Below are positions 33,813-52,640 of a stretch of DNA of 64,000 nucleotides, piece by piece (position 1 is the stretch's first letter; each line of letters opens with the position of its first letter). The notes beneath the pieces are model-generated. The model worked only from the letters and a program-made list of their open reading frames with translations. It made no database searches and was not told where the DNA came from. The position numbers and the translations under genes are program-made. The stretch is from Lineus longissimus. Its lineage: Eukaryota > Nemertea > Pilidiophora > Heteronemertea > Lineidae. The stretch is taken from contig NC_088311.1 of assembly GCF_910592395.1 (NCBI RefSeq), positions 15,256,501-15,320,500 on the forward strand, written 5' to 3'.

Positions 33813-34793
33813 ACTAGCATAACCCGTGTAGTGGGCATAATTCGGGTGGTAGCTAGAGTTGAAAGGCAGGCCTATGTTATCATACGTTGTGCCACTGACC
33901 GTGTTTTGTTTGTCATCCGTTCAGTATGTACACACATTTTTCCAATTTGTTAGATACCCCCCCCCCGAGTACGCATAGGTGATACAAAGTAATGTACAGC
34001 AAATTAATGTATTAGAGTACGCAAAATGGCCCCTATATCGTAACCATGGTTACTGAAATATAAAAAACAAACTTTGAAGAAATCGGCCCGGTAGTTTCTG
34101 GAGTCACCCAAAGGGCCAGGTGTGGGGGCGTTGCCGGACACGCATTTATTTCTTTATTGACTTTTGTCTTTTGCATGATAGGACCCAGCCGGCTACCACC
34201 ACCCTCGGCTAGGCCTATGAATATGATTATGATAAGACCCAGCCTACCACCACCCTCGGCTAGGCCTACCTATTTCCGGACAATATCACTGAACGAACAT
34301 ACGAACGTAAATGAGTGCAACCTTTGTACATGTAAGTTGCTGGGCGACTGGCGTTGGTTGACAATGACACGCTGATCATTGCTGATGGATTGGTGCTTGG
34401 CCGTTGGCATTGGTGGTGTAGGGCACGCGATCTATTGGGTCAGGCGGTATGCTAGGCCTACACCGCGCCGTCGCGACTCAACTTGTCGGCGCGGCGGTGG
34501 GTCGATCAGATATTCCGGCATGCAGTCATTATTTGTGGGAAATTTCCTTTTTAGAACGACAAAATTGCACTCGCCTTGCTCAACATGCAGTCGACAAATT
34601 CAACTTGGACAATCTCGCAAATTCGCACGAACGGTGTGATTCTCTCGGTGATGACGTCATTAGCAACGCGTAGAGAAACTTCCAGCGAAATCGCAAATGA
34701 GTGCTTTAGCAAGTGAGTTCTTGCGTTTTCCTGACAAATGCAAGAATAAATTGGCCGCTGACTTTGACAAATGGTGCCGAGGAAGCAAGTTTA
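33813..34793. other. Intergenic DNA
   Basis: A ~57-bp near-tandem duplication around 34180-34270 (both copies contain CCACCACCCTCGGCTAGGCC). A frame from ATG at 34697 (MSALASEFLRFPDKCKNKLA and on) is open until the repeat border at 34794 and continues into the repeat; it may be a short exon or chance. No family recognised. Confidence 0.35.
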
Positions 34794-35476
34794 ATGAAAT
34801 GGCCAGGGCCATTGTGCTCACCTCATGTGGAGGAAAGATGGATAAAGAGCATGGTATTGTGTCATGTAGTGTTAGGTTTGATGTAGGTCCAAGCAATTAC
34901 AATTTCCCCAAAATGGCCAATTTACAGTACATTCGACCTCTGTGACCTTGAAAAGTAGGTCAAATCAAAGAAGACCCGGGTGACACATTGAATGGTTGTT
35001 AGAATTAGATGTACCTATGATATAAAATTGGTGCCAATCGGGCAAGTCATTACTAGGAATAATGGCATTTTGAAGAATTTAGGATTTGGCCCCATCCCTG
35101 GAGGCCAAACGGCAAATCAGATCGCACCAAACTTCGGTACCTGAGATCACCTGACCAAGGGGTACATGTGTACTTAATTTGTGATCAATAGTCATTGCAG
35201 TTAAGAAAGGTGCCATAGTTACGGCCTGACAGCCAATTTACGCCATTTGACCTCTGTGACCTTGACAAGAAGGTCAAATTAAAAACCTGTGTGACATATA
35301 CTGTATGGTGGTTAGATGTACCCATGATATCAAATTGGTGGCAATCGGGCAAGAAGTTAAGGAATAATCACATTTTTAAGGTTTTTGGATTTTGCCCCCT
35401 GGTGGTCAAGTGGTGAATCATATTGGACCAAACTCTTAGCAGAGGTGAGCTTATCCCATACCGTGGCGTCCGTCGT

Positions 35477-35520
<44 letters not shown>

Positions 35521-36559
35521 CGTCGTCCGTTAGCAGGGCACGTTTCGTAACTGTTAGAGCTATTGAGTTGAAACTTGGTACACATGTACCCTTATGTAAT
35601 GACACCTGGGACACCAAGTTTCGGTCCGATTCGTTTCATGGTTTGGCCACCAGGGGGCCAAATGTTAAAAGTGAAAATATGCAATATCTCCCTTAATAGT
35701 AGTCGGGAAATTTTGAAAAAAATATGGTAGGTACTTCTAGCAAAGGTGCATCATATATCCTCCGGGTTTTTGATTTGACCTCCTTTTCAAGGTCACAGAG
35801 GTCAAATGGTGTAAATTAGCCGTTAGGATGTAACGATGGCACGTTTCTAAACTGCAATGACTATTGATACCAAATTTAGTACACATTTACCCCTTAGTCA
35901 GGTGATCTCAGGGACCAAAGTTTGGTCCAATATGATTCACCACTTGACCACCAGGGGGCAAAATCCAAAAACCTTAAAAATGTGATTATTCCTTAACTTC
36001 TTGCCCGATTGCCACCAATTTGATATCATGGGTACATCTAACCACCATACAGTTTATGTCACACAGGTTTTTAATTTGACCTTCTTGTCAAGGTCACAGA
36101 GGTCAAATGGCGTAAATTCGCCGTCAGGCCGTAACTATGGCATGTTTCTTAACTGCAATGACTATTGATCACAAATTAAGTACACATGTACCCCTTGGTC
36201 AGGTGATCTCAGGTACCGAAGTTTGGTGCGATCTGATTTGCCGTTTGGCCTCCAGGGAGGGGGCCAAATCCTAAATTCTTCAAAATTCCATTATTCCTAG
36301 TAATGACTTGCCCGATTGGCACCAATTTTATATCATAGGTACATCTAATTCTAACATCCATTCAATGTGTCACCCGGGTCTTCTTTGATTTGACCTACTT
36401 TTCAAGGTCACAGAGGTCGAATGTACTGTAAATTGGCCATTTTGGGGAAATTGTAATTGCTTGGACCTACATCAAACCTAACACTACATGACACAAGACC
36501 ATGCTCTTTATCCATCTTTCCTCCACATGAGGTGAGCACAATGGCCCTGGCCATTTCAT
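34794..36559. repeat. Fold-back arrangement of GCTCACC-family repeats, 641-bp arms
   Basis: The left arm 34794-35434 is the near-perfect reverse complement of the right arm 35919-36559. Both arms end in the family terminus GTGAGCACAATGGCCCTGGCC. The 484-bp loop holds the family head (CAGAGGTGAGCTTATCCC and a CGT/CGTC run, 35467-35530) and one further unit. The array therefore consists of one plus-strand copy (about 35440-36559) joined head to head with a partial minus-strand copy. Confidence 0.88.
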
Positions 36560-36935
36560 TTTTGATTTGACCTAATTTTCAAGGTCACAGAGGTCAAATG
36601 GTGTGAATTTGCCGTTTGTGTGTAACTGTGGCATGTTTCTTAACCACTAAAGCTTTGAACTTTAAACTTGGTACACGTGAACCCCTAGGTCAGATGACCT
36701 GTGACACTGATTTTCGGTCCGGTTTGATTTTTAACTTGGCCACCAGAGGGCCAAAACCAAAACTTTGAGTAGTGCCATATCTCGCTTATCACTGATTCGT
36801 TTTTGGTAAAAATGTTATGGTAGATACTCTGAACAAGGATACATTACATATGAGAGGGGTTTTTAATTTGACATTCTTGTCAAGGTCACAGAGGTCAAAT
36901 GGCATAAATTGGCCATTTGAGCGTAACTGTGGCAT
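36560..36935 (+). repeat. Duplicate of part of repeat copy B
   Basis: About 370 bp nearly identical to 28109-28478 (I count only a handful of substitutions), far closer than neighbouring units are to each other. It begins immediately after the terminus of the fold-back repeat and stops at GGCATG. Confidence 0.8.
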
Positions 36936-37464: not shown

Positions 37465-39052
37465 AAAAATTCAAATTCAAATTCAAATTCTTTATTACTC
37501 TAAAACGCTAAATAGTCTGGTTCTCTGACCTCGATCTCCGGGCTTTTGGTAGGGTTAAGGATCGGGTCAGGTGACAACAACCGTCTACAAATAACACGGT
37601 AGAAAAGAGGAGTGTTATTTTTAGATTCAGCCATTGTTGTAATTTCCCGAGCCAATTATCGTTTTACGGTCGAATTGAGCGCTGTATCTGTCCTAGGATT
37701 ATGCACTATTATTGAACACATCATTCTACACTGTAGAAATACCGGAATTACTCTTAAAATGCGCGATTACGGTTATTTTATGTTTCAGACAAAGGGGTTT
37801 CCCCCATATAATGACGTCACTTTTAGCGATATTGTCATTTTCGCAAAAGTACGATTTGGGACGCTAAACTTTGACCGATTGCGTTGGTTTTTGCAGGATA
37901 GGTTGTTTATAATATTAAAAAAATGTAGGCATAAGAATTTTTGTGGAAATGGTGGTTTAAGCTATTGTTCTATTTATAGATTTTTGTTATTGCCTGACCT
38001 ACGACAGCGAGAGTGAGGTCAGGAGCCCAGACTATAAAACGCCCACTAGGGGCCAACGGTAACATAAAATAATTACAAAATATACAATATAAAGTTACAG
38101 GGTATACAAAATAAGATCACAAATATTTAAAGACAAAAACATAATAATGGAAATCAGGACAATATAGAGTTACGCAGTTTAAAGAACTCGTTGATAATCG
38201 CAGCAGAGGGAGGTGAAGGATGTTCCAGAAAAATTGTAGTCAGATCCGACAGAGACAGAAAATGGAGATCACTTCTATTACAACTGCAATGAGTTTTGCT
38301 GTTTTGACGCATATTTAGGGCACACCGCAAGGAAGTGAAAATCATCCTCAACCTCCCCTGACTTGCAAACCTCACACTTTCTTAGACTACAGTGTCTCCC
38401 AGTTTCGATTCTTAGACAATGGGCTTCCAGCGTTAATTTTGTGATACAAGCCCTGTGTTTCACTGATTTAATATCATTTAAATATGTTTGAAGTTCAAAT
38501 GAAAACAAGATTCCTATATACATCGAGTTTTTCATTTGTTGCGATTTCACCAAAAATTTCATGTTGACAAATATCTCTAATCCTTTACTGGGCATTAGAG
38601 TATAATATTTTCCAGTTATCCACATTAATATTCATTTAATCAAACCATAGGTACCCCAACCCGGAGGAATTAAGAAGTTTTTTAACATAAGCTGCCCAAT
38701 AATGTTTGAATTGATTGGCTTTACATGAGGCATTGGATACATCCAACAGATAAGCCTTCTTGACCAGTGAGTCATCAGGGAGACAGAGTAATCTGAACCA
38801 ATACTTCAGTAAACTTGAGACTGATGCGAGGGGAGTCTTTTAAAGAGAATTGGAAATTTTGCCCGAGTTTTATAAAGACACCTCTTGTAGCCCTCTGGAC
38901 AGGTCTTGCGTAGTCAGCAAAAATTTACCAGATGGAGACAACTTTAAACCAAGGTACATATAACTGTTAACAACTTCAAGAGGTACATTATTGAACAAAA
39001 ACCTGTAGTAAGCAGCTAAAGATTTACCAGATTTGTTAAAGATAATATGATG
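37465..39052 (-). mobile_element. LINE fragment (3' part), interrupted by a DNA transposon
   Basis: The minus-strand 3' end is a GAATTT repeat tail preceded by AATAAAG (37465-37494). The end of ORF2 lies at 38154-38625. The sequence continues after the DNA transposon (44959-45060). It was the target of the element at 39053-44887. Confidence 0.7.
38154..38625 (-). pseudogene. LINE ORF2 C-terminus
   Basis: LEAHCLRIETGRHCSLRKCEVCKSGEVEDDFHFLAVCPKY (in pieces: LRIETGRH, CEVCKSGEVEDDFHFLAVCP) is the Cys/His-rich tail typical of CR1/Rex-like reverse transcriptases. A second frame just downstream ends in FFKLRNSILS, the usual extreme C-terminus of such ORF2 proteins, so there is a frameshift near 38290-38340. 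Confidence 0.75.
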
Positions 39053-39340
39053 TACGGTGGCCCGTATATGCCATATGTTTTTTTAATAATTTAATTTGGA
39101 TTTTTTTTTCCTCGAATTACCACCGCGGTGACAATAATTACCACCGCGGTGACAATGATTACCACCGCGGTGACAATGATTACCACCGCGGTGGTAATTA
39201 ATTACCACCGCGGTGGTAATTAATTACAGCCAAGATGATTGGACGCGCTATATGACGTCATGTAAGCAACATGTGTTTTTAAGGTGAAGGTCAGACACAC
39301 GGATATTTCGAATGGCTACCGTTTCAAGACATCTCGTGAA

Positions 39341-40002
39341 ATGGCCTCTGCTGAATATCTTCCGCTACATTCAAATCCTGCCACAACAGTCGACAGGGAT
39401 GTTGTTAAGATCTACTTCAATTTCGGCTTCAGTTATGCAGATATTATTCGATTTTTGGCTTTGTATCATGACGTGAGCTTAAGTTTACGTCAGCTCAGCC
39501 GGATTTTGAGGAGGCTTGGTCTTCGACGGCGTCATATCAATACCGATTTTAACAATGTTGTTCAGTTAGTGGAACAAGAGTTATCTGGTTCTGGTCGTGA
39601 CTTAGGATACAGGTCAATGCACGAGAGATTACGTAAGATTCATGATGTAGTTACTGATAGGGAGACTGTCCGTTTGACACTTCTTCATCTCGACGCAGAT
39701 AGAGTTGAAATGCGTCGACGACGCAGGTTGCGCAGACGACTATATCAAGTACCAGGGCCGAATTACATATGGCACCTCGACGGATGGGACAAGTTAAAGC
39801 CGTACGGGTTCCCGGTCCATGGCTGCATCGACGGCTACTCGAGACGAATCATCTGGCTGCAGGTAGCTTCGACAAATAACGACCCGTCTGTTGTTTGTAG
39901 ATACTTTGCAGACATAGCAGGAAAAATGAAAGGCGTTCCAAGAGTAGTGAGAGCAGACCGTGGCACCGAAAACGTTCACATTGAAACAATGCAAACCTTT
40001 CT
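39341..40002 (+). pseudogene. Integrase-like transposase, N-terminal two thirds
   Basis: ATG at 39341 (MASAEYLPLHSNP) opens the frame in good context; the frame is also open upstream into the terminal repeat. A helix-turn-helix-like region (RDVVKIYFNFGFSYADIIRF, then LSLRQLSRILRRLGLRRR) binds DNA in related proteins. The integrase core follows: NYIWHLDGWDKLKPYGF (first Asp), HGCIDGYSRRIIWL, and RVVRADRGTEN (second Asp). At 40002 the frame runs into a LINE fragment, before the catalytic Glu. Similar integrase-core proteins occur in fish and invertebrate genomes. Confidence 0.85.
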
Positions 40003-40453
40003 TTTCCACTGGCTTCCTTTGAAAGCAAGGCTCGAGTACAAGGTTAATCTAATGGTCTACAAATGTCTACATGATTACGCACCAAAATATCTCGCAGACT
40101 GCTTGGAAGTTTACAAACCCTCACGCTCCCTGCGGTCAAGTACAATGGGTCTGTGTAAGGAAATCCGCACAAACCGGGTGATAGGCTCCTCTGCATTCGC
40201 AGTGGCGGGACCAAAGCTATGGAATGAGCTTCCAAATAGTGTTCGTGGCCAGAGTACCCTGGGTCGTTTTAAAACTGCACTAAAAACTCATATTTTTAAG
40301 AAATTCTTTTGAATCCTTTGCACGTTTTTTTTTTTAGTAATGACTTTTATTCTATAATGTATTAATGTTATGTTTTATTATAAATTGTAAAGCGCTTAGA
40401 AGTTTTAACAACGTTAAGCGCTATAAAAATGTTTTTAATAATAATAATAATAA
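40003..40453 (+). mobile_element. 5'-truncated LINE fragment inside the integrase gene
   Basis: The frame continues from the integrase into a LINE ORF2 C-terminus (NLMVYKCLHDYAPKYLADCL, SRSLRSSTMG, AVAGPKLWNELPNSVR, HIFKKFF) and a stop. A 3' UTR ending in AATAATAATAATAA follows (40437-40453). A 5-bp duplication TTTCT (39998-40002, 40454-40458) brackets it. Confidence 0.85.
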
Positions 40454-40458
40454 TTTCT

Positions 40459-41012
40459 ACGCAGTGCACATGATGATGATCGCGCGTTACATAACACTAC
40501 ATTCATGTACGGAAGGTCGACTGCTAATCAGCGTATTGAGAGCTGGTGGAGCAAATTTGGCCAACAGGGGATGTATTTCTGGACATCACATTTCAAAGAA
40601 TTGAATGAAATTGGTATCACTGACATTACAAATGAACTGCACATTGAATGTTGTAGATTCTGCTATATGCCACTTGAGTGCGGAATTACACGATATCATG
40701 AAACTGTGGAATACACATTATATACGCAAATCTCGGAACGAGCATGTCCCGCATGGCAGACCCGACGTCATTTACTTCATTCCGGAGATGTTCGGTGGCA
40801 GAGACTATCTACTTGGGGTGGATGATACTGAATTAGTTGCAATTTCTGATTTATTAACTGTTGCACCACCGATGTGTCAGAACGAGTATTCAGAACTGTT
40901 TGAGTTGCTAATGATGGAGAAAACCCTTGCTTATCCTTCGACAATAGAGGAAGCCGATGAACTATTAGTCACTCTGCTTGATACAACTGAGGACTATCTT
41001 GCCCAGCTGTAA
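40459..41012 (+). pseudogene. Integrase-like transposase, C-terminal third
   Basis: Resumes exactly after the LINE with a short charged stretch and FMYGRSTANQRIESWWSKFG, the segment holding the catalytic Glu (RIESWW). A frameshift lies near 40670-40690. The other frame continues with IMKLWNTHYIRKSRNEHVPH and GRPDVIYFIPEMFGGRDYL to a stop at 41010-41012, matching the usual C-terminus of this family. The gene has at least two inactivating lesions. Confidence 0.82.
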
Positions 41013-41031
41013 ACATACTTTATCACGGTTA

Positions 41032-41412
41032 ATGCAAGTTTCAATTCGTTTCTTGTACCCCCCCCCCCCCCCCCCTCCTCAAGGGTAGTTAAGCTATCAC
41101 CACTAATCTTTGCCGATGCTTGAGTAGTATTTATTTTTCCTTTAGTGAAAATTTGGCGAAGCTGGAAAGAATAAGGATGCTAATGTGTCGATGTCTTGTC
41201 GAACATACAGCCTTACCCAGTAAAATTAGTTCGGTTACTTTATATGACGGTGATAACTGATATATTGTTGATGGTGATGTCTTGACGAAAGAAAAAGTAG
41301 CATTGGTGAAAAAAGGGTGATGCTTGAGCCTTAAGATGTCGTTATAGGGTGATAAGGTGTCGTACCCTTGAGGAGGGGGGGGGGGGTACAAGAAACGAAT
41401 TGATACTTGCAT
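41032..41412. mobile_element. Small inverted-repeat element with C/G runs
   Basis: 381 bp whose ends are inverted repeats of about 55 bp: ATGCAAGTTTCAATTCGTTT, then CTTGTAC, a C run and CTCCTCAAGGGTA, mirrored at 41360-41412. No coding capacity. Target duplication unclear (TTA/TAA-like). It sits just after the stop of the integrase. Confidence 0.7.
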
Positions 41413-42233
41413 AATAGCTCGGTGTTCATGTTTCTTATCTGAGCACGGAAACTTATAACTTCCTACATACTAGCTGGAATATTTATAGGCGTTTATCCGT
41501 TGATATTGTTGTTGTCTAAATTCATTGTCGGTCGATGATGCACCCTCTCGACTACATTGTACTGTCTTACTTTCATTCATCAACATAATACTACTTTTGT
41601 TGAATAAATGTTTATTCTTATACAAATTTACATGATCATAATGTTCATTTCGTACATCATAGGTAATTATTTATGAACACAAACGAAAATGGTGCACTTG
41701 TGCAATGAAGTAACAGAAAAAGAAAAATTGTACAAAATAAGGATTTTAGAGAACCTTTCTATTAGTGAGATTTATATTTCAGAGCACATTTCTTGTTCCG
41801 ATAAAATCTGTGCCATCGGCCAGTGATGAAACGTCTCTTTTTGAACTGACAAAATGATGAATTACTAAACTGACAATAAAATGCTAACATAAATGCCACT
41901 TAAAATGATGCGAAAAACTAAGGCAGAACAAACTCAGATACACGTAATTGCAAATTGATAAAAACGATACAACTACAAAGTCAGGTGAACAATTGAGGGT
42001 ACAATACAACACACTCAAATAAATGCAAATGAATATAGAACTATCTTGATGAGATGATTATAAAGTCTAGAGAGCGATCTGCCGACTGAAAATCCCAAGA
42101 AAAAGGGTAGAACAACAAGCCTTGAGTACAAGAAGGCCGGAAAACTCCAGATGCTTTTTAAGTGTAACGTTTGAAGGGTAATGATTTTGCATACAAATAC
42201 AATCTATACTATAATGCGCGTTGTGGCCGCTAT

Positions 42234-42501
42234 TTAGGAGGTAATTTTTGTTTCAAAATTGGGCCTTGGAAATGCGTCGAATTCTTGCAACCTTTGGCTT
42301 CGTAGGTCTGGATCATACGTAAGAGTGTCACTGAGGGTGTCATACGTCGAATATCTTCGTGGTTTTAGAATAAATAACAACTTTTCAGAGAGCACGTCGA
42401 CTGGAGAGCTCCGCTCATTCTCAAAAGCATACACAAACTTCACGCATATTCTCCCTGCCACATCAGTATTAGCTTCCAGCACGTATGTAGTGCTATACAA
42501 C
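42234..42501 (-). CDS. Putative terminal exon of a second transposon gene
   Basis: Following an AG (42502-42503), about 88 codons run to a TAA: YVLEANTDVAGRICVKFVYA, FENERSSPVDVLSEKLLFIL, then RRYSTYDTLSDTLTYDPDLR. Amino-acid usage looks protein-like but I recognise no family. A plus-strand frame overlaps, so this could be spurious. The same strand carries the exon at 43286-43351. Confidence 0.35.
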
Positions 42502-43285
42502 CTGGTCCATGGTGCAGGGTATCAGCAGGGAGATTAATGATTAGCCTGTTCTATTTTAGTTCTATTCGAGAAACACTGACCTGAGTGATAAGGAAAATTC
42601 TGCAGAGTGGCCTACCGGAACATGCAGTCAGGGTATCAATAAACAGTTATGCCAGGATGGACAAAATATGTACAGTGGCCAGCGCTTGCTTTTTGTTTTA
42701 TTCTTTACTGACTGATGTTGTCAGTTTGAATTGCGTTCTGCATCTCTCCATGCGCCTGGCTTTGGTCCGACAGTGGCATTGGGTACGGGAGTGGGTAGGT
42801 GATATGCCTAATATGTGAGGGCCTTATTTGGAACAGGACCTGCTGTCACTGGTCTCAACGCATTGTGCAAAATAGCGTACTCCAATCAATCTATTGGGGG
42901 TTTCATGTAGATAGCAGCAATAAGTCCCTAAATGCAGTTAATTTCGTGTTTAACCTTTAATAAAACTTCAGTAACGTTAGAAATTTAATGTAGCTCAATC
43001 ATCGTGCGCATTTAACTAATGTATATTACATTTCAACTTTGCCCGCTCCTTGGGTATATGCTAGTGTATATAATTAATGATGAAAACATTTCCGGATAAT
43101 TTGTGTATTTTATGCACAAATTCACTTTAAAAATGTGATAAGACAAGTTGTCAATGACATATTTCGAATAGGGGTGCATAGTGGCACCGATTAAGACCGG
43201 CCAAATCCCATCGCATTCAATACCCCTTCATCCATATTGCACTTGAATATGTCATAATCTGTGATTTCTAGGATGGTAGTCATAC

Positions 43286-43351
43286 CTTCTGCTCTCTAAA
43301 TTTCTCAATTACACACTCTTCTACTCCTCGTCGGAGCAAGTATTCACAGAT
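43286..43351 (-). CDS. Putative 22-codon exon with SAM-domain-like sequence
   Basis: Minus strand: acceptor TCTCTTTTCAG, then 66 bases encoding ICEYLLRRGVEECVIEKF followed by REQK, then donor GTATGA. The peptide resembles the first helices of a SAM domain ('..fL...gv.e..i..F.eq.idg'). The phase is 0 at both ends. No neighbouring exon was confidently joined. Inference: a spliced gene carried by the transposon. Confidence 0.4.
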
Positions 43352-43779
43352 CTGAAAAGAGACGATAAATCTCAGACATTGGGTTGTTATTATCATCAAA
43401 GTATATACCGGTATAGGGCGAGCTTATATCATATTTTTGTTATTAGCTGCTGCTTATAGATCCAGAGTCCCCTTAAATATAATCAGTCATTCCGTCATTG
43501 TGCTATTGACAGCTATTTAAGGGGGGGGGGGGGGGTATCTGTCGCAATGTTTCGTTATAAAGAAGCCCCATCCCTAATCCCAGCAGGCAATTTATTCGAC
43601 AAATCCCGACGCAATTTTCTGACCATTCCCGCGTTCCTCTATGTCATAGGCGTCATAGGCACAGTGGCGCACACAAGTTATTATTGGTCGCAAGCATGTA
43701 ACCTACATTGTATAATGCCCATGCATGCTGGAATGAATCAGGCCATGTCAATGCTACAGTGCTAACACGGTGGTTTGTC

Positions 43780-44507
43780 CGGCTGTTATAAAACGCGGAT
43801 TCCGCGGAAATCCTTGCGGATTCCGCGGAAATCCTCGGAAAAAATCACAAAGCCGCCAGTAAATACGCGCATGATATTTAATGATAATTATACTATACAA
43901 ATAACAACATAAATCATAAATCGGAGGCAAGAACTACCAGTTATCTGCACATTTCATCGGTCAGATTTTAATCCTCTGGAGCGCCATTCATGCCATTCCG
44001 ATCGACTCTTCCCTCTTTTTTTCTTGGTGTTGATAAACTTTGCATGTTATCTTCGACACCACCGTGGTTCCTTCCCTAACGGAACACATTACGAGGCTGC
44101 TTTCAAGTGTGATTGATGCCCGGATTGATGTACGTTACGGTATATGCCTCCTTCAAATATAAGTCGATGACGAACTGAATTCTGGTCTACGAAAATGTTT
44201 TAGGACAATCTCCCTGCAGCTCGAACCTAACCAACCATATGCGACTGCACATCGGAGTCTATTTTAAGCAATCACAAAAACTTACTTCGCGGCCCGTCTA
44301 TAAGTTTATTGCAAACTACAAGGTGCTTGTGATTTACGGCGCATACAGCGCACCATATAACGGGGATTCCCAAAGACCTTGTCACCAGGAGTACTTCATG
44401 CCCACAACAATGCACACTACTAATATGAAAAACTCTCACCTGCGGTTCAGGTAGCCACCCTGTAGCCAAGTTAGATTTTCCGCGGAATCCGCGTTTTATA
44501 ACAGCCG
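43780..44507. mobile_element. MITE with 9-bp target duplication (Mutator-like)
   Basis: Ends CGGCTGTTATAAAACGCGG and CCGCGTTTTATAACAGCCG are perfect inverted repeats continuing into ATTCCGCGGAAA. The 9-bp direct repeat TGGTTTGTC flanks the element (43771-43779, 44508-44516). 728 bp without a transposase. A 9-bp duplication is usual for MuDR/MULE elements; the superfamily is an inference. Confidence 0.85.
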
Positions 44508-44958
44508 TGGTTTGTCACCGATACAAATTGAAGCTTGCATAGTAAAATAAGAGTAAAATAAGAAAGAGGGCCTGGGATATGAGGAGTAGTTCTTGGCAAC
44601 GCAGTACAATGTAACAGTGTCAGCTGATACCTACTTCATCACTAGACTTCATCTCTCCGACTTTCACTGTCAACTCGGAGTACTCTACTGACCTTCACCA
44701 TAGCAACCACATGTTGTTTACCAGACCATGACGTCATACAGCGCGTCCAATCATCTTCGTGGCTGTAATTAATTGTAACTAATTATTGTCACCGCGGTGG
44801 TAATTATTGTCACCGCGGTGGTAATTCGAGGAAAAAAAATCCAAATTAAATTATTAAAAAAACATAAGGCATATACGGGCCACCGTAGGTACATTATTGA
44901 ACAAAAACCTGTAGTAAGCAGCTAAAGATTTACCAGATTTGTTAAAGATAATATGATA

Positions 44959-45060
44959 CTTTGGAATGATTGGCAACTGGAAAATCGAGGTCGATGCTGG
45001 AAAAACTGTTTAGTGAGACCTGAACTGAATAAGAACTGCGTCATTCTCTCCATCTTTTGA
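44959..45060 (-). mobile_element. Continuation of the interrupted LINE
   Basis: Inferred continuation of the minus-strand LINE sequence left of 39053 after the duplicated 71 bp. Too decayed to translate with confidence. Confidence 0.4.
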
Positions 45061-51589: not shown

Positions 51590-52640
51590 CAATGAGTGGG
51601 CCCATACGTGAGACAAAAAGTTACCAGATTGTGATTCGTGGCTGTGAATGATAGGACCCCGACCCCTGATCACTGCCAAACTTTATATGTGAGACAAAAA
51701 AAATCCTGATTGTGACTTACGGCTTGGAATGATGGGACCCCGACCCATGACCACTGCCAAACTTTATATGTGAGACAAAAAGTTACCAGATTGTGACTCG
51801 TGGTTGTGAATGATAGGACCCCGACCCATGATCACTGCCAAACTTCATACGTGAGACAAAAAGTTACCAGATTGTGACTCGTGGCTGGGAATGATAGGAC
51901 CCCGACCCCTGATCACTGCCAAACTTTATATGTGAGACAAAAAGTTACCTGATTGTGACTTACGGCTGGGAATGATGGGACCCCGACTCATGACCACTGC
52001 CAAACTTCATACGTGAGACAAAAAGTTACCAGATTGTGACTCGTGGTTGGAAATGATAGGACCCCGACCCCTGATCACTGCCAAACTTTATATGTGAGAC
52101 AAAAAGTTACCTGATTGTGACTTACGACTGGGAATGATGGGAGCCCGACCCATGACCACTGCCAAACTTCATACGTGAGACAAAAAGTTACCAGATTGTG
52201 ACTCACGGCTGGGAATGATAGGACCCCGACCCATGATCACTGCCAAACTTCATACGTGAGACAAAAAGTTACCAGATTGTGACTCGTGGCTTGGAATGAT
52301 AGGAGCCCGACCCCTGATCACTGCCAAACTTCATACGTGAGACAAAAAGTTACCAGATTGTGACTCGCGGCTGTGAATGATAGGACCCCGACCCATGATC
52401 ACTGCCAAACTTTATATGTGAGACAAAAAGTTCCCAGATTGTGTCTCGTGGCTGTGAATGATAGGACCCCGACCCATGATCACTGCCAAACTTCATACGT
52501 GAGACAAAAAGTTACCAGATTGTGACTCGTGGCTGGGAATGATAGGACCCCGACCCATGATCATTGCCAAAATTCATACTTGAGACAAAAATTTACCAGA
52601 CTGTGACTGGCAGCTGGGAATGAGAGGACCTAACCACCTC
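51590..52640. repeat. 81-bp satellite array
   Basis: About 13 copies of a unit containing ATGATAGGACCCCGACCC, CACTGCCAAACTTCATACG and GAGACAAAAAGTTACCAGAT. Two unit types alternate in places (CCAGATTGTGACTCGTGG vs CCTGATTGTGACTTACGG), suggesting a dimeric higher-order period near 162 bp in the first half. Confidence 0.9.

Follow-up and report, generated by a model that had tools for sequence, protein, structure and literature searches.

A 71-bp direct duplication flanking a single IS3EU-like transposon of Lineus longissimus, and 6-bp duplications flanking its relatives

How a DNA transposon came to lie between two copies of a 71-bp sequence was the question raised by a stretch of 64,000 nucleotides from the ribbon worm Lineus longissimus (NC_088311.1, positions 15,256,501 to 15,320,500; hereafter, the window), which corresponds to C4:15256501-15320500 in the genome surveyed (391 Mb in 30 contigs). 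Comparison within the window, to which positions given without a contig refer, indicated that the 71 bases at 38982-39052 were repeated at 44888-44958 with 70 of 71 bases identical, the sole mismatch being the last base (G39052 versus A44958), and that both copies abutted the transposon at 39053-44887 with no bases between. A direct duplication of this length beside the inverted termini, mismatched only at its last base, had been described in an earlier, sequence-only reading of the locus and was thus confirmed. The structure is best read as a real one-off in an ordinary family, namely a scar of repair or recombination.

The duplication flanking the element is real. With the frame moved one base to the left, the match became exact over 71 bases, since A38981 is the same as A44887, the final base of the element. 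Between 2 and 300 bp, no alternative flush duplication fitted this copy when identity was required below 6 bp and up to 17% mismatch was accepted above. The left copy consisted of 66 bp of a long interspersed nuclear element (LINE) followed by TGATG. Over lengths of 2 to 12 bases, the beginning of the 71-mer was unlike its end, without any overlap between the two.

The transposon (plus strand, 5835 bp including nested insertions) carried the terminus TACGGTGGCCCGTATATGCC at 39053-39072 on the plus strand and at 44868-44887 on the minus strand (expectation from shuffles, 0.00); TACGGTGGCCC started at 39053 and its reverse complement finished at 44887. The termini read TACGG...CCGTA, i.e., were of the TA..TA type. 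The left terminal inverted repeat (39053-39108, plus strand) was 98% complementary to the right one (44832-44887, minus strand) over these outer 56 bp. Repeat comparison placed copies of ACCACCGCGGTG inside both ends, as an array of units of about 21 bp at 39116-39220 (plus strand) and as two units at 44785-44826 (minus strand); the left array may contain transposase-binding sites. The transposase coding region with its rva_4 integrase core (39341-41012, plus strand) was broken in this copy by a nested LINE tail and a frame change, and the Pfam match to rva_4 had an E of 2.4e-21 before the tail and 1.2e-7 after it. Homologues reaching E 0.001 numbered 542 of 1912 candidates (best, 79% identical), with corals, fish, sea cucumber, beetle and ribbon worm named among the 120 listed. 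Of the DDE residues (P0001 numbering), D147 and D206 were invariant in 28 aligned sequences and E248 was nearly so. The predicted structure of the transposase (mean predicted local distance difference test, pLDDT, 81; predicted template modelling score, pTM, 0.47) matched IstA, TnsB and retroviral integrases in Foldseek at E 1e-6 to 1e-3 with template modelling (TM) scores of about 0.1-0.5, and this modelled likeness to integrase-type enzymes is supportive only. Viral contigs gave no matches to the terminus, the subterminal repeat or the transposase, and plasmids gave none to the left element end. According to PMC10045372, TA..TA termini characterise complete IS3EU families, whose duplications are usually 6 bp long; because of its TA..TA termini, its rva_4 DDE-type transposase and the families described there, the element appears to fit the IS3EU superfamily.

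The lengths of the duplications beside other copies did much to settle how the 71 bp should be read. A genome-wide search gave 8 exact places for the 20-base terminus (0 for the backwards control), 36 places when up to three mismatches were allowed (control, 8) and 215 for a related 14-base terminus, TACGGTGGCCCATA (control, 0). The two-ended relatives measured, nearly all from related families and most carrying TACGGTGGCCCATA, were flanked by 6-bp duplications in 38 of 41 cases (33 perfect and 5 with one mismatch, i.e., L011, L062, L064, L085/86 and L093/94), by no duplication in 3 of 41 and by a long duplication in 0 of 41. A 6-bp duplication was noted for 9 of the 11 other pairs of a first set (the exceptions being L010 and a copy on C1 truncated at its left end), for 18 of 20 loci of a second and for 10 of 10 further pairs of a third. 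In the second set, L057 and L064 were judged by the outer of two termini, L063 had no duplication and L056 showed TACATG on both sides after its repeated 10-bp tip was discounted; L021 and L056 were both counted as 6 bp after a tip repeat of 9 or 10 bp was discounted in this way. Thirty of the measured pairs were closely spaced termini on opposite strands, taken from the first 100 of the 215 TACGGTGGCCCATA places. Three close pairs, at C1:9735878, C1:9780579 (both apparent neighbours of C1:9690929) and C7:18244937, stood outside the measured set, as did L022 and L009, the partner ends of which were not found in the two small stretches searched. The C7 ends at 13063889 and 13075337, entered at first as one element, belonged to two separate copies (L023 and L032), and that row was excluded. 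The target preference derived from the 38 duplications was palindromic and near CATATG. These findings indicate that 6 bp is the rule for these families and that 71 bp is peculiar to the window copy.

Measurement of the duplications beside other copies, which the sequence-only reading had proposed, thus gave ordinary short ones, a result that tells against an enzyme with 71-bp staggered cuts as its rule. A single event of that kind, in which the two ends were joined to opposite strands 71 bp (or 70 bp) apart, perhaps on a nucleosome, followed by gap filling, is improbable. It would account for the flush fit on both sides, for 70 of 71 identical bases and for the want of any alternative duplication, and duplications of the related IS481EU and IS1202 elements, according to PMC10045372, fall into separate length classes (about 4-6, 15 and 24-29 bp), even among members of one family. 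However, all 38 duplications measured here were 6 bp, without any 15- or 25-bp class. There is an outside chance that an IS3EU-like transposase that usually works at 6 bp occasionally joins its ends about 70 bp apart, perhaps across neighbouring nucleosome turns. To our knowledge, about 70 bp would be the longest target duplication for any cut-and-paste transposon. No such duplication was described in the titles and abstract openings of the literature searched, which is not proof that there is none.

Long copies of the closest family were located on C1, C7 (two), C12 and C20, together with a 228-bp derivative on C16. The long copies were about 97-99% identical over aligned internal stretches, and identity was lower in the terminal repeat arrays. 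A coding relative at C1:17637338-17647665 was more distant, with 70-78% DNA identity. Damage was noted at several ends: the left end of the C1 copy was without its first 21 bp, the left end of one C7 copy showed a 10-bp tip repeat together with a deletion and filler in inverted orientation, and the second C7 copy broke off within the transposase. For the C12 and C20 copies, roughly 16 kb each were examined without a right end being found.

Other irregular termini were recorded during the survey. At L063 (C4:12108158-12108659) and L010 (C9:11138220), which are two of the three pairs lacking a direct duplication, the six bases just beyond the termini matched in inverted orientation (6 of 6 and 5 of 6, respectively), a match made somewhat likelier by chance by the palindromic target preference. 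The outer 9-10 bases of the terminus were tandemly repeated at the tip in L023 (1491-1510), L021 (near 1492-1500) and the right end of L056; the 6-bp duplication of L021 and L056 sat outside this repeat, which in one comparison was present in 2 of 44 termini. Three short elements (C1:19299024/19299125, C1:29027396/29027493 and C5:10402912/10403007) had a second inverted terminus 95-101 bp past the first, and in two of the three the 6-bp duplication belonged to the outer terminus. Termini with identical or near-identical flanks were noted for L026, L027 and L028 (C9:14688828, 14696351 and 14704197) and for L036-L040, which are therefore copies inside larger repeated units.

The target of the insertion was a LINE fragment (37467-39047, minus strand, by paralogue comparison) in whose 5' end region the transposon lies. 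Two paralogues, L050 and L051 (C16:7886535 and C8:14052748), were found by a 24-base word allowing at most three mismatches; a YADD motif was noted in the L050 translation, and the two main stretches of the LINE were 85% and 91-92% identical to the paralogues. These matched the left flank to 39047 and the right copy to 44953. The left 71-bp copy was continuous with the LINE running left to about 37467, while in the right flank no LINE match was found beyond 44953 except possibly for the six bases ACTTTG (GATAATA-C-ACTTTG in the paralogues versus GATAATA-TGAT-ACTTTG in the right copy). The earlier claim that the LINE continues past both copies thus stood on the left and failed on the right. LINE homology stopped no more than about 10 bp from the insertion point (44953-44963), with the C to TGAT difference from the paralogues; this position near the LINE 5' end may be a coincidence, or may be a trace of the duplication event or of an older repair scar. 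Both paralogues had A at the position of the right copy's final A, provided that the alignment across the short indel is correct.

Searches for a LINE target duplication revealed no shared word of at least 9 bases at the two LINE ends (one 9-base match lay elsewhere), none of 154 protein-search candidates for LINE homologues reached E 0.001 and a Pfam search of the LINE read-through gave no family; the LINE was instead recognised through the paralogues and their YADD motif. The C12 flank resembled the 71-mer over 12 bases, a lead that was dropped since no LINE match was found in that flank. A 28-29-bp stretch of the right flank, 86% identical, was common to two other loci.

The 71-bp segment was single in both paralogues within the 3 kb examined, so that the empty sites with a ready-made tandem, named by the sequence-only reading as a refutation, were not encountered there. 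As the two were 99% identical to each other over 1610 bp, they may amount to little more than one witness. A tandem LINE repeat that was present before the insertion and received the element exactly at its junction would yield the observed sequence and is nonetheless barely credible: the unit is single in the paralogues, and a duplication-free insertion at precisely that point would be required, whereas 6 bp is the length found beside 38 of the 41 relatives. Had the element entered such a tandem with a short stagger, the result would not be 71 bp flush with its ends, because the ends of the 71-mer are unlike over 2-12 bases. An empty site was represented by the paralogues only; an allelic one, or a second allele, was not found in the assembly by the right-flank word, which occurred exactly at one place (the window) and with three mismatches at two.

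An assembly artefact, in which the occupied allele was joined to a piece of the empty allele through a 70-base overlap (k-1, with k = 71), is very improbable. A run of exactly 70 identical bases that ends at a mismatch is what such an overlap would give. However, the window is without N and contains tandem arrays and long inverted repeats, and the contig extends over 25.6 Mb, features that suggest a long-read assembly.

Of the three options left by the sequence-only reading, repair, taken together with recombination, is therefore the one now favoured, the long cut and the older tandem having been weakened by the relatives and paralogues. The 71 bp probably reflect ordinary 6-bp chemistry together with some accident of repair or recombination; the 6-bp stagger of the relatives means that 71 reads as 65 + 6. 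The particular form to which we lean, in view of the frequent damage to termini in the closest family, is a 6-bp insertion after which about 65 bp were copied beside the right end, and its likelihood falls a little short of even. The element would have inserted with the 6-bp stagger shown for its relatives beside the 5' end of the LINE fragment, leaving ATGATG on the left and what is now ATGATA on the right, one mutation apart. The right end would then have been broken at the exact element boundary, for instance by transposase cutting at one end or by cutting at both with gap repair. With the empty homologous chromosome or the left flank as template, repair would have copied about 65 bp lying just left of the insertion point, and this patch would have been joined to the intact right terminus. 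In a variant, the whole right copy as far as ACTTTG would be a patch from an empty allele, which would thereby also explain the G/A difference and the end of LINE homology within about 10 bp. The A of both LINE paralogues at that position, given a correct indel alignment, and the limited repair synthesis documented after P-element excision (PMC2895639) speak for break repair.

Several observations weigh against break repair. No intermediate, allele or second example of the 71-bp structure was seen, and only the 228-bp C16 copy shares with the window copy the possession of both intact termini in the closest family. Damaged ends also have other causes, and may be no commoner here than in other families. 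Only one base of possible microhomology (A38981/A44887) was present at the right-terminus join. Target-motif scores were 0.53 bits for ATGATG, -1.33 for ATGATA and -0.9 for GGTACA, compared with a median of 1.38 for real duplications, and the motif cannot separate repair from hybrid insertion.

Insertion of a hybrid element, or an exchange involving two neighbouring insertions, is possible, if rather unlikely. The left end would derive from an insertion after ATGATG and the right end from one 65 bp leftward with GGTACA as its 6-bp target, and ends on sister chromatids would have been paired by the transposase and inserted into the homologue or a crossover would have occurred inside the element between two alleles. 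Such an event relies on the 6-bp chemistry of the 38 relatives and predicts the exact structure, 65 + 6 bp flush, with G/A as an allelic difference. A flush duplication longer than the normal stagger beside one intact element, as expected of a hybrid-insertion product, is indeed present, and hybrid-element insertion with exchanged duplications is described for P and Galileo in PMC2775673. Against this, GGTACA is a poor target (18% of real duplications score as low and 38% of window positions as high), a misfit that hardly discriminates between models, and no second insertion was seen at either site, the right-flank word having its single exact place. The observed sequence would follow from any of three events: break repair, insertion of a hybrid element, or a crossover joining two insertions that lay 65 bp apart.

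The locus illustrates that one copy may point to an extraordinary enzyme even though the chemistry of its relatives is ordinary. A 71-bp stagger, if true, would alter what is thought possible for integrase-type transposases. The survey provides a measured 6-bp stagger and a CATATG-like preference for an animal-type IS3EU-like group, and its odd termini bear on the breakage and repair of such elements.

Three nested insertions account for part of the length of the element. A LINE 3' tail with a 5-bp duplication, TTTCT (40003-40453, plus strand), was lacking from the L033 and L045 copies; an insert with inverted ends and C/G runs (41034-41411) was lacking from L032, L033, L034 and L045; and an inverted-repeat element with 31-bp ends and a 9-bp duplication, TGGTTTGTC (43780-44507), was lacking from L031. 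Elsewhere in the window, an array of tandem repeats spaced by multiples of 81 bp was noted at 51646-52530 and long near-perfect inverted repeats at 34793-36560 (arms 34793-35434 and 35919-36560).

Compared with known systems, the element shares with IS3EU its TA..TA termini, a DDE integrase-like transposase and, in 38 of 41 measured relatives, the 6-bp duplication, from which the 71 bp of the window copy differ. Preston et al. in 1996 reportedly dealt, to judge from their title, with flanking duplications after P-induced recombination, and work by Gray in the same year is said to concern P elements and hybrid element insertion or flanking duplications. The related IS481EU elements of parabasalids likewise have an integrase-like transposase, and their duplications (about 4, 15 or 25 bp according to PMC10045372) can exceed 12 bp; their termini are given there as TNT..AYA, whereas those of the window element are TA..TA (TAC..GTA), and every duplication-bearing relative here had 6 bp. 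Hybrid products of P and Galileo, as described in PMC2775673, resemble the present structure: the stagger is of ordinary short length, and an intact element is bordered by flanks that have been exchanged or shifted. The comparison on our side covers one assembly. Aborted gap repair after P-element excision, documented in PMC2895639 as limited repair synthesis followed by end joining, is like the break repair proposed here in its synthesis from one side and its end joining; it differs in its template, which is the sister's element for P, whereas for the window copy the flank or the empty homologue would have served.

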